From: an uncultured Olsenella sp.
Lineage (GTDB): Bacteria; Actinomycetota; Coriobacteriia; Coriobacteriales; Atopobiaceae
Assembly: GCA_900314575.1 (NCBI GenBank)
Contig: OMVS01000001.1
Location: forward strand, 1-64,000
Reading direction: 5' to 3'
Length of the DNA stretch: 64,000 bases
The notes beneath the pieces were generated by a model that had not been told where the DNA came from, ran no database searches, and saw nothing but the letters and a program-made list of their open reading frames with translations. This document shows positions 8,453 through 11,488 of the stretch, piece after piece. Within the stretch, counting starts at the first letter, position 1. Each line of letters opens with the position of its first letter. The translations under genes and the position numbers were made by a program.

Positions 8453-8890
8453 CTAGGCCTTGTGGTAGCCGAGGTCCGCCGGGTTCAGGTCTCCCGAGAT
8501 CCACTTGACGGTGCCGCCGCCAGCCTCGAACGCGCTACGGGCGGCCGTCACCTCCTTGGAGAGCTCCATCGTATCTGCGTCCTTGCTCTTGCAGATTCCC
8601 TTGGACCAGTAGTCGATCACCAGCTCGGAGTCCCCACGGATCTCCTTGGCGCCAAGGCCCCTTGCCACCTCGAGAGCCAGGGATAGCGCTCGCAGCTCGC
8701 CGTAGTTGTTGGTACGGCCAGCCAATGTCAGGTTCCCGTCCTCGTCAAGCTCCCCCGCGTCAAGGACGAGCGGCAGCAGCGACTCCTTCGCCTCGTTCGC
8801 CACACGGCACTGGGTGGCCCTGCCAGACTGCAGCGACGCCCCGCTGTCGAAGTAGACGACGCCATTCTCCGCCTTGAGGTCATTCGCCAT
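8453..8890 (-). CDS. RNase HI-like (RNase H fold) protein
   Basis: A 145-residue protein with the RNase H type 1 arrangement of acidic residues: D15 in YFDSGAS, E65 in NNYGELRAL, D87 in IRGDSELVIDYW and D139 in GDLNPADLGYHKA. The fold cleaves the RNA strand of RNA-DNA hybrids in known members, and all four metal-binding acids appear to be kept, so activity is plausible. It is not the RNase HII (rnhB) of this genome, which lies at 27.8-28.6 kb. It is divergent from a ClpX-like ATPase with 163 bases between them. The gene stands apart from housekeeping operons. Confidence 0.82.
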   Translation of the reverse strand: MANDLKAENGVVYFDSGASLQSGRATQCRVANEAKESLLPLVLDAGELDEDGNLTLAGRTNNYGELRALSLALEVARGLGAKEIRGDSELVIDYWSKGICKSKDADTMELSKEVTAARSAFEAGGGTVKWISGDLNPADLGYHKA

Positions 8891-8952: not shown

Positions 8953-9053
8953 AGGGGACATTAATTCACGCAGTGCAATAGCCCTGCCCATCGCCTCCGG
9001 AGCGGGGCGGAGAAGGGGACGCAAGTACCTGCGGCCCCGAAAGGACGTCGGAC

Positions 9054-10439
9054 ATGAATTTCCGCATGGCCCAGGACTTCTTTGTCGAGCTTGTCGGCGC
9101 GCTCGCCTGCGCCGATGGCGGCACCCCGGAGACGAACCCGGCGATCACGTTCAACGAGCACGCCAAGGCGGGAGAGTTCGACGAGCTCTCGGACGCCGAG
9201 TACAACGCCTGCCTCCACGCCGTGAACGAGATCGCCGTCCTCTGGCAGAAGCGCCCCACTACCACCCTTTACGAGATCGCGCGCAGGGCGCTCTCCGACT
9301 GCAGCCTCACCGAGGCTGAGCTTTCGGTGGTAGCCGAGGTGCTCGGGCGCGCATGGGTCCGCAAGCACGGAAACCCCCTGGAGGACCACTACTTCAAGAC
9401 CCCCGTCCGATACCTCGACCGCGAGCGGTCGCGCGGCGGCGCCCTCGACAGTGCCGAGGTGACGGGCCTCCTCCAGCTGAGCCCGCGGCAGATCGCCAAG
9501 GAGCTCTCGCGAGACGTCTGGGGGCAGGAGGATGCCATTCGCGACCTCGCCCTCATGCTCTGGCACCATGTGCGTGGAGACCGCCGGGTCACCCTGCTCA
9601 TGGGGCCCACCGGCTCGGGCAAGACCCTGCTCGCCAACGGCGTCGCAAGGTTCTGGCCTCACGTCGCCTGGGTCGACGGCAGCCAGGTCACCACCGAGGG
9701 GTGGAAGGGTGACGTCAAGTTCTCCAACATGTTCCGTGGGATGGACAAGGTCGACGCCGAACATGCCATCGTGGTAATCGACGAGGCCGACAAGATGTTC
9801 GAGCCGAAGACCACCAGCTCGGGAGAGAACAGCTCCGCGTGGGTGCAGACCGAGCTCCTCAAGCTCATGGACGGGGGGCACACGAAGTCCGTCCTCGGGT
9901 CGGACCCCAAGGCAGTCCCCGAATCGCTCTCCATGGAGAGCGTGAGCTTCCTGCTCATGGGCACCTTCGAGCACATGCTCGAAGGCATGTCCCACGAGAC
10001 GCGGCTGGCCGGCTTCTCCGCCGACAACAGCGCGATCGACGCGGCCGAGACCAGGCTCCCCTCGATCGAGGACCTCGTGCGCTACGGTGGCGTGCGCCGC
10101 GAGATCGCAGGTAGGATCAACATCGTGTCCCGGGTCTCCAAGCTCACGGTCGACGACTACGCTCGCCTGCTGAGGGACCCCGCCCGCTCCCCCGCCGTGC
10201 GCATCGCGCGCCAGTACGGGACCTCGGTCACGCTCACCGACCAAGAGTGCCAGGAGCTGGCCGAGTTCGCCGCCTCCGCCGGCCTCGGCGTCAGGAGCCT
10301 CGAGTCCAGACTCGAGCAGAGGCTCGACGAGGACCTCTGGGAGGGCAGGATAGACCCCGACAACGACATCCCGGACCCCACGGACCAGCCGAGCTCGACC
10401 GAAGAGGCCGGCACCACCGAAGAGCTCCCCTGGGACTGA
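9054..10439 (+). CDS. ClpX-like AAA+ ATPase without zinc-binding domain
   Basis: A 461-residue AAA+ protein whose core follows ClpX: Walker A GPTGSGKT (184-191), pore-loop position TEGWKGD (214-220, where ClpX has GYVG), Walker B IVVIDEADKM (239-248), arginine-finger region REIAGRINIV (349-358) and sensor 2 GVRSLES (412-418). At the position of the ClpP-binding IGF loop it has AGF (319-321). Residues 1-150 contain no cysteine-rich zinc domain and resemble no N domain I know; the C terminus is acidic (EELPWD). ClpX family members unfold proteins for ClpP or act as remodellers. The ATG has AAAGGA 8 bases upstream. It is convergent with the next gene. Confidence 0.85.
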   Translation: MNFRMAQDFFVELVGALACADGGTPETNPAITFNEHAKAGEFDELSDAEYNACLHAVNEIAVLWQKRPTTTLYEIARRALSDCSLTEAELSVVAEVLGRAWVRKHGNPLEDHYFKTPVRYLDRERSRGGALDSAEVTGLLQLSPRQIAKELSRDVWGQEDAIRDLALMLWHHVRGDRRVTLLMGPTGSGKTLLANGVARFWPHVAWVDGSQVTTEGWKGDVKFSNMFRGMDKVDAEHAIVVIDEADKMFEPKTTSSGENSSAWVQTELLKLMDGGHTKSVLGSDPKAVPESLSMESVSFLLMGTFEHMLEGMSHETRLAGFSADNSAIDAAETRLPSIEDLVRYGGVRREIAGRINIVSRVSKLTVDDYARLLRDPARSPAVRIARQYGTSVTLTDQECQELAEFAASAGLGVRSLESRLEQRLDEDLWEGRIDPDNDIPDPTDQPSSTEEAGTTEELPWD

Positions 10440-10462
10440 TCCCAAGGCCTGGGCCTGGCCCC

Positions 10463-11488
10463 TTAGGAGAAGAGCATCCCGCGCCCGACGTCTGCCAGGG
10501 TGGCCGCGCCGCACATCTCCATGGTGTCGGCGAGCTCCGAGCGCAGCTGCGCGAGGTAGTCCTCCACTCCCTGCTGGCCGCCGCCGTGGGCCGCCACCAC
10601 CACGGGCCTGCAGACGAGGGCCGCGTCAGCGCCGAGCGCGAGCGCCCGGAAGACGTCCACGCCGGAGCGGATCCCGCCGTCGACGAGGACGGACATCCTG
10701 CCCGCCACCGCCTCCGCGATGCCGGGGAGCACCTCGGCCGTCGCCGGGACGCCGTCGAGCACGCGGCCGCCGTGGTTGGAGACCACGATGGCGTCCGCGC
10801 CCGCATCGAGCGCCTTGAGCGCGCCGCGCGCGGTCATGATGCCCTTGAGCACGAAGGGCGTCCCGGCCTCGTGGCACTGCTCGGCAACCTCTGCGAGCTG
10901 GTCGACCGTCTTGGACCCCGCGGGCGGGTTCTGGCCCTTGAGGAAGGGCAGGCCCGCCGCGTCGATGTCCATGGCGATGGCGAGCGGGTGGGCACCCAGG
11001 GCCACCCCGACGCGCTCGCGCACGACGTCCATTGCCCAGGGCTTGATCGTCTCGACGCCGCAGCCCCCGAGGGAGGCGATGACCTGCGTGGCGTTGGCTA
11101 CGATGCTGCCCTCCAGGCCGTCGCCGGTCCACGCGACCGTACCCTGGGCCGCGGCGGCCGAGAGCACGCAGCGGTTGTAGGAGACGTCGTCGAAGAGCTC
11201 GCCGTAGTGGCGCCTCACGTCGCCGACGGGACCGACCATGACGGGCAGCGAGAGGGTGCGGCCGAAGAGCTCGAGCGAGGTGTCCGCCTCCGCGTAGGGA
11301 CGGATCGTGTCGAGGTTGACGCGCCACTCCTCCCAGGCCTGGTAGTTGCGGACGGCGACCGTGCCCGTCCCCTTGGCGCCCGGGCCTGGGACGTGCGCGC
11401 CGCACGCCCTCCCGTCGCAGACGGGACAGGCCTTGCACCACGCCCCCGTCTTGCCCCTCGCCCTCTCCGCGAGCTCCCTGTACAGCAT
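10463..11488 (-). CDS. FMN-dependent alpha-hydroxy-acid oxidizing protein with N-terminal four-cysteine motif
   Basis: A 341-residue TIM-barrel flavoenzyme of the lactate/glycolate oxidase and type 2 IPP isomerase-like group. The active-site segment VSNHGGRVLDGVPAT holds the catalytic histidine and arginine, and LVDGGIRSGVDVFRALALGA binds FMN phosphate. The N terminus carries C18, C21, C24 and C29 (CKACPVCDGRACG) followed by a glycine-rich PGPGAKGTG, a feature of a clostridial/actinobacterial subfamily. The substrate, likely a 2-hydroxy acid such as lactate, is not proven. GGGGAG precedes the ATG at 11488. It lies downstream of proS, separated by a hairpin. Confidence 0.88.
   Translation of the reverse strand: MLYRELAERARGKTGAWCKACPVCDGRACGAHVPGPGAKGTGTVAVRNYQAWEEWRVNLDTIRPYAEADTSLELFGRTLSLPVMVGPVGDVRRHYGELFDDVSYNRCVLSAAAAQGTVAWTGDGLEGSIVANATQVIASLGGCGVETIKPWAMDVVRERVGVALGAHPLAIAMDIDAAGLPFLKGQNPPAGSKTVDQLAEVAEQCHEAGTPFVLKGIMTARGALKALDAGADAIVVSNHGGRVLDGVPATAEVLPGIAEAVAGRMSVLVDGGIRSGVDVFRALALGADAALVCRPVVVAAHGGGQQGVEDYLAQLRSELADTMEMCGAATLADVGRGMLFS

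Follow-up and report, generated by a model that had tools for sequence, protein, structure and literature searches.

A diverged ClpX-like protein with a replaced N domain in an uncultured Olsenella sp., and its possible link to ClpP-associated gene loci of gut bacteria

The zinc domain, the RKH loop, the GYVG pore loop and the IGF loop of ClpX are thought to set the choice of client and the docking on ClpP. The window, that is, the whole stretch of 64,000 nucleotides of DNA that was analysed, carries a gene for a ClpX-like AAA+ protein in which each of these parts is either missing or altered. This raises the question whether such a protein still works together with ClpP, and what has taken over the recognition of its client. 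The gene and the features of its motor are listed first.

9054..10439 (+): gene of the ClpX-like AAA+ protein, ATG start, 461 aa plus stop
9480..10343 (+): ClpX-type AAA+ core, residues 143-430, from profile, PDB and structure matches
9603..9626 (+): Walker A GPTGSGKT, residues 184-191, from the sequence
9699..9710 (+): pore-1 loop GWKG, residues 216-219, where canonical ClpX has GYVG
9768..9791 (+): Walker B region, residues 239-246, with D243/E244
10008..10016 (+): tripeptide AGF of the ClpP-docking loop, residues 319-321, from the alignment with family members
10293..10295 (+): sensor-2 arginine R414, from the alignment
10425..10433 (+): C-terminal Leu-Pro-Trp, residues 458-460; LPW is also found near the C-terminus of two relatives (L093, L186)

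The gene looks coding, since its GC3 of 0.91 is like that of its neighbours and lies within their range. AAAGGA 5' of the ATG was read by eye as a candidate ribosome site. An antisense ORF of 517 aa (8961-10514) overlaps the gene and is of the sort expected in DNA of 69% GC. A sequence-only reading of the window had located the open frame, both Walker motifs, GWKG, AGF and R414, and all of these were placed correctly. By these residues and the ClpX-type core, the window protein keeps an intact AAA+ motor (Walker A, Walker B and sensor 2). The Pfam search returned AAA with 43 bits, and the best NCBIfam model was that of ClpX. ClpX chains were also the best relatives in the PDB (residues 143-429, E 2e-15) and the top structural matches of the AlphaFold model, even though this model is weak (mean pLDDT 56). 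That the core follows ClpX closely, as had been proposed, was nevertheless overstated: identity to the canonical-like ClpX of the same genome is only 29%, and the scores of 80.8 bits with NF003745 and 62.4 bits with TIGR00382 lie far below the cut-offs of 359 and 370.75 bits. The canonical-like ClpX is encoded elsewhere in the genome (G000:C73:23457-24428), just after the sole ClpP found there (C73:22659-23225). The window gene is thus a second, diverged copy, and its description as a paralogue was borne out.

Comparison with ClpX clearly separates what has been kept from what has been changed. The core at residues 143-430, Walker A and B, the AGRI arginine region, sensor 2 and the positions of the pore-1 and ClpP loops are the same, whereas the window protein has no zinc domain and no RKH loop, a new N domain, GWKG for GYVG, AGF for IGF and a shortened stretch before Walker A. 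The zinc domain of ClpX is a client-recognition part. As the sequence-only reading had stated, it is absent here: residues 1-150 contain three cysteines (19, 53, 83) and no CxxC, in contrast to all three canonical ClpX proteins compared, the copy of the same genome included, which have two CxxC pairs within their first 70 residues. The RKH loop, described as a further client-recognition part of ClpX in the accessible text of PMC7112951, is missing from its aligned place; the letters RKH sit in the N-terminal linker instead. In the pore, E215 precedes G216-W217-K-G219, and the same text reports that Tyr153 and Val154 of ClpX pack against the substrate (PMC7112951).

Seven further relatives of the window protein were found, all in gut Firmicutes, and the family is here called CXL. 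One of them was found in a Lachnospiraceae MAG (L093). Another, from G817, is related over its full length, N domain included, and scored 234 bits, against at most 121 bits for canonical ClpX, in a search of 50 of the 57 genomes first listed with VirD4-like/ClpP loci. Another member (G876) was found among 250 genomes of the family of G817, and four genes (G1275, G1222 and two in G1333) among 299 genomes of the family of G790. Two proteins with 141 bits (G866, G880; frames of 471 and 438 aa) were kept out of CXL as their scores were nearer to canonical ClpX. Both the zinc domain and the RKH loop are missing in all eight CXL members, while the RKH loop is present in the three canonical rows. The altered pore loop pointed out earlier proved to be a trait of the family, as G[W/F]xG occurs in all seven members retaining this loop (GWKG in three, GWSG in two, GWNG and GFKG in one each). 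The eighth (L189:8343-9635) lacks Walker A and the pore-loop region in frame, through either natural loss or an assembly error. In a tree of 66 cores, a single branch with support of 100/99 separates the seven CXL rows from the 59 others, canonical ClpX among them, but the CXL branches are very long (program warning), so that the tree may mislead; L189, lacking the Walker A region, was not included. A literature search that covered sources other than preprints and most subscription journals found no family derived from ClpX that carries this N domain. CXL retains the motor and, as described below, an xGF docking loop, and it swaps the other three parts; its members thereby offer natural variants for testing the role of each part.

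At the docking position, xGF is present in all eight CXL members, as IGF (four), VGF (two), LGF (one) and AGF (the window protein only). That proteins so diverged all keep Gly-Phe (eight out of eight), preceded in seven by Ile, Val or Leu, speaks for docking of CXL on ClpP. One of the eight is encoded directly beside ClpP, the other neighbourhoods being varied. This is the L093 member, where the gene order is VirD4-like protein, ClpP, hypothetical protein and CXL protein; its core is 31% identical to that of the window protein, with AEGWNG in the pore, VGF in the docking loop and LPW at the C-terminus. The suggestion that the protein may act independently of ClpP is therefore not supported for the family, in view of the conserved Gly-Phe, the four IGF loops, the accessory ClpP beside the L093 member and the loci described below in which the N domain occurs together with ClpP. 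For the window protein alone it is possible, given AGF and a search for an accessory ClpP in its genome (96.5% complete) that returned the housekeeping ClpP alone. Severe defects in ClpP binding are reported for the E. coli ClpX substitutions I268L, F270L and V274A (PMC7112951), so that a protein with AGF would be expected to dock weakly on the housekeeping ClpP; the position equivalent to V274 is Asn in the window protein by ungapped count. Taken to its end, this line of evidence would make the window protein a ClpP-independent remodeller, like a disassembly chaperone, with AGF marking the loss of ClpP docking in this lineage. The restriction of AGF to the window member, the strong effect of even I268L in E. 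coli ClpX (PMC7112951, accessible part) and the genome search speak for it, whereas the eight Gly-Phe pairs and four IGF loops suggest that the family is under selection to dock ClpP, and ClpP adjoins both the N-domain proteins and the L093 member. We regard such a remodeller as rather unlikely. Conservation in the family together with the AGF exception makes ClpP-linked proteolysis the best reading for CXL, and ClpP-free remodelling its main rival for the window member.

As the N domain takes the place of two lost client-recognition parts, zinc domain and RKH loop, it is a natural candidate for recruitment.

9117..9383 (+): N domain (about residues 22-110), all helices by prediction; its homologues are a small protein encoded in ClpP/VirD4-like loci and the N domains of three other CXL members

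The domain is fused to the motor in four of the eight CXL members (window, L175, L186, L189). As the sequence-only reading had anticipated, it is unlike the ClpX zinc domain. No alignment with a known N domain of ClpX or HslU was found, and the domain is conserved in other proteins. Besides itself, the window N domain, searched alone against 297 genomes of the order, matched proteins of G017 (44% over 52 aa, E 8e-9), G227 (E 7e-7) and G129 (E 6e-4). These three proteins of about 200-300 aa are encoded next to ClpP and a VirD4/TraG-like ATPase, on the same strand. A profile of these four retrieved six more, which makes 10 of 396 genomes of the class in all; in the six new loci, a VirD4-like neighbour was present in each and ClpP in five, the sixth ending at a contig end. 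VirD4-like genes therefore occur in 9/9 N-domain loci and ClpP in 8/9, the ninth being cut by the contig end, with the qualification that the nine are not all independent, as the profile already contained three; the search with the window domain alone gives 3/3. A draw of 396 genomes of the phylum yielded the own genome only.

Comparison of the domain with PHROGs, PDB and Pfam identified no family, one of ten rows reaching DUF5984 in the Pfam search (E 0.0014). The AlphaFold model consists of helices and is of low confidence (mean pLDDT 61). Foldseek with this model gave no PDB fold match (best E 2.9), and since the model is weak, this result does not demonstrate a new fold. The smallest form of the protein was observed in Solobacterium, where a gene of ~115 aa with the motif common to the N domains lies directly upstream of ClpP and overlaps its start by a few bases (L105:5638-6614, L107:3962-4938). 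In five of the nine loci, the N-domain gene is followed by a conserved gene without Pfam match (L060:7108-7749, L058:5674-6495, L061:5540-6184, L059:1721-2542, L044:5258-5989), and this gene, we presume, resembles DUF4365-type proteins.

These data also bear on an alternative view, in which a generic helical module was acquired independently as N domain and the ClpP/VirD4-like loci would be uninformative on what the ClpX-like protein does. The region is short and modelled as all helices, and in the stretches read no ClpP or VirD4-like gene was seen near seven of the eight CXL genes. Nevertheless, a profile of the nine proteins without the window protein gave the window N domain 53.7 bits, compared to 8.3 bits for the best of 2000 shuffles, and the domains have in common a motif around NPAxxF...KxGxFxxLSDxEY. 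All nine matches lie in the same type of gene cluster, and the L093 locus joins a CXL gene with ClpP. We consider a generic module very improbable; on the evidence of sequence conservation, the N domain is the same module as that of the small protein beside the accessory ClpP and the soluble VirD4-like ATPase.

An alignment of the VirD4-like proteins was scanned against GTDB genomes. Of the 330 relatives obtained, the top 80 were retained (L065-L144). ClpP was matched in the same locus, mostly immediately upstream, for 76 of these best 80 of 330, which is no unbiased rate because the best matches were taken with patterns derived from ClpP-linked genes; moreover, near-identical Collinsella account for about 15 of the 80. 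The four loci without a ClpP match are L068 (cut at the contig end), L092, L100 and L114. Hosts of the best 80 are mainly Coriobacteriia and Firmicutes, together with one Bifidobacterium (without ClpP match) and one MAG labelled Bacteroidales. The Ser/His/Asp positions are kept in the accessory ClpPs. Walker A of the VirD4-like proteins lies within about the first 50 residues, so near to the N-terminus that the membrane part found there in conjugation coupling proteins must be lacking. L065:6277-9669 is an example of a ClpP gene beside the gene of such a soluble VirD4-like ATPase. In the Firmicutes loci (28, with Collinsella aerofaciens merged), one or two further small proteins are encoded upstream of ClpP. 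Homology of these to the N domain was considered and rejected, as the profiles thA and thB gave no significant match.

VirD4-like ATPases are familiar as conjugation coupling proteins and are not known to partner ClpP, and the link between the two genes consequently points to a possible new ClpP machine. The literature search, of the scope given above, found no paper on the ClpP/VirD4-like pair, which recurs and is possibly an undescribed ClpP machine. If so, a VirD4-like ring ATPase would be a new kind of ClpP partner. PADLOC recognised no known system in the N-domain and VirD4-like loci; the VirD4-like protein matched mad8 weakly (E 9e-7). Neighbours picked by eye near CXL members and N-domain loci include HipA kinases (L058, twice; L093; a weak one in L175), Abi_2 (L058), a restriction endonuclease domain (L061), a KAP NTPase (L043), a D5-like primase (L180), a C-5 DNA methylase (L188) and a microbial PARG (L187). 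By these neighbours, the surroundings look like mobile-element or defence territory. Two further observations concern single CXL loci. The N-domain member in L186 (L186:9612-12763) adjoins the genes of a protein kinase and of a PP2C phosphatase, a setting suggestive of proteolysis under the control of phosphorylation, and regular repeats resembling a CRISPR array are located near a CXL member and the DNA methylase (L188:3074-4772).

The model that we prefer, and hold to be on balance probable as a whole, is that of an adaptor-fused CXL unfoldase belonging to a ClpP-linked mobile-element or defence-like system. The window protein would be a hexameric, ring-shaped, ATP-driven protein unfoldase of the ClpX-derived CXL family. 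Its N domain would serve for recruitment or as an adaptor, in cis by fusion in this protein and in trans in the ClpP/VirD4-like loci. CXL would use the Trp of its pore loop, in place of Tyr, to grip a dedicated client and would feed it to ClpP. The window member itself might use the housekeeping ClpP with reduced affinity, due to Ala for Ile in the docking loop, or it might have lost a dedicated partner and now serve as a remodeller. A wider proposal, which we put forward tentatively and as doubtful in its entirety, is that one adaptor domain serves two motors, either fused to CXL or separate beside the accessory ClpP and the VirD4-like ring ATPase, in an undescribed, ATP-dependent proteolytic system of gut bacteria that travels on mobile elements and removes a protein of a phage, plasmid or other element.

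The distribution of the window gene is sporadic in its order, since the family profile matched one of 242 genomes, the own one, and the gene is missing in related gene contexts. Its convergent neighbour is a putative FMN-dependent dehydrogenase, named from reading the sequence, with matches in two of six genomes searched. This dehydrogenase and IspG were found in G002, of the same genus, and in G008, and both the ClpX-like gene and its divergent neighbour were missing from the 14 kb read in each. The divergent neighbour, 163 bases from the ClpX-like gene, is an RNase H-like gene (8453-8890, minus strand) whose Pfam RNase_H match is weak (E 0.005, below the cut-off). A shared RNase H partner was at first suspected and then dropped for lack of homology to L032:625-1449 (E 0.034 in a one-sequence comparison, with negative domain scores). 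Reading of the ORFs of the window revealed no ClpP or VirD4-like gene around the ClpX-like gene, and the VirD4-like query, run without positive control, had no match in the genome (96.5% complete). For the window protein itself, PADLOC indicated no known anti-phage system and returned only weak matches in the P-loop region (best E 3.3e-5). The full-length protein searched against 60 relatives gave ClpX cores and one N-domain match and no full-length relative; there was no relative in genome_contigs and viral_contigs, and in plasmids and phages only ClpX cores were matched, none spanning 80% of the query. The L093 and G817 members likewise had no close relative in viral_contigs, plasmids and phages.

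Such an isolated position, near tRNA genes and with a single genome matched in the order, together with the altered docking loop and the relative lacking Walker A and the pore region (L189), might be expected of a decaying or neutral remnant of a mobile element that once bore the full system. This reading is difficult to reconcile with an open frame of 461 codons, genome-like GC3 and retained motor residues, and it appears improbable to us.

The adaptor-fused unfoldase that we favour can be set against proteins already known. A ClpX paralogue without N domain and RKH motif has been described, namely ClpX3 of Myxococcus xanthus, which is isolated from clpP and of suspected horizontal origin (PMC11423568, accessible text). 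Compared by description only, it differs from the window protein in that no replacement N domain is described in that text; being 43.5% identical to E. coli ClpX (PMC11423568), it is closer to canonical ClpX than the window protein is. HslU (TIGR00390) likewise has a related AAA+ core without a zinc domain, but with 35 bits on the window protein it is a weaker match than ClpX, and no I-domain-like insertion was seen in the window protein. HslU has an I domain and docks HslV, not ClpP.

Finally, a second ClpX-like type of about 600-700 aa was observed in Coriobacteriales (L035:5066-6901, L045:2950-5070, L046:4380-6182). It shares a diverged ClpX core with CXL but forms a separate clade and has a long C-terminal extension. 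By eye and by motif scan, no xGF was seen at the docking position of these three proteins. Two of the three carry GWVG or GWAG in the pore and the third GRVG, and the type is also present in G001, of the same genus as the window.
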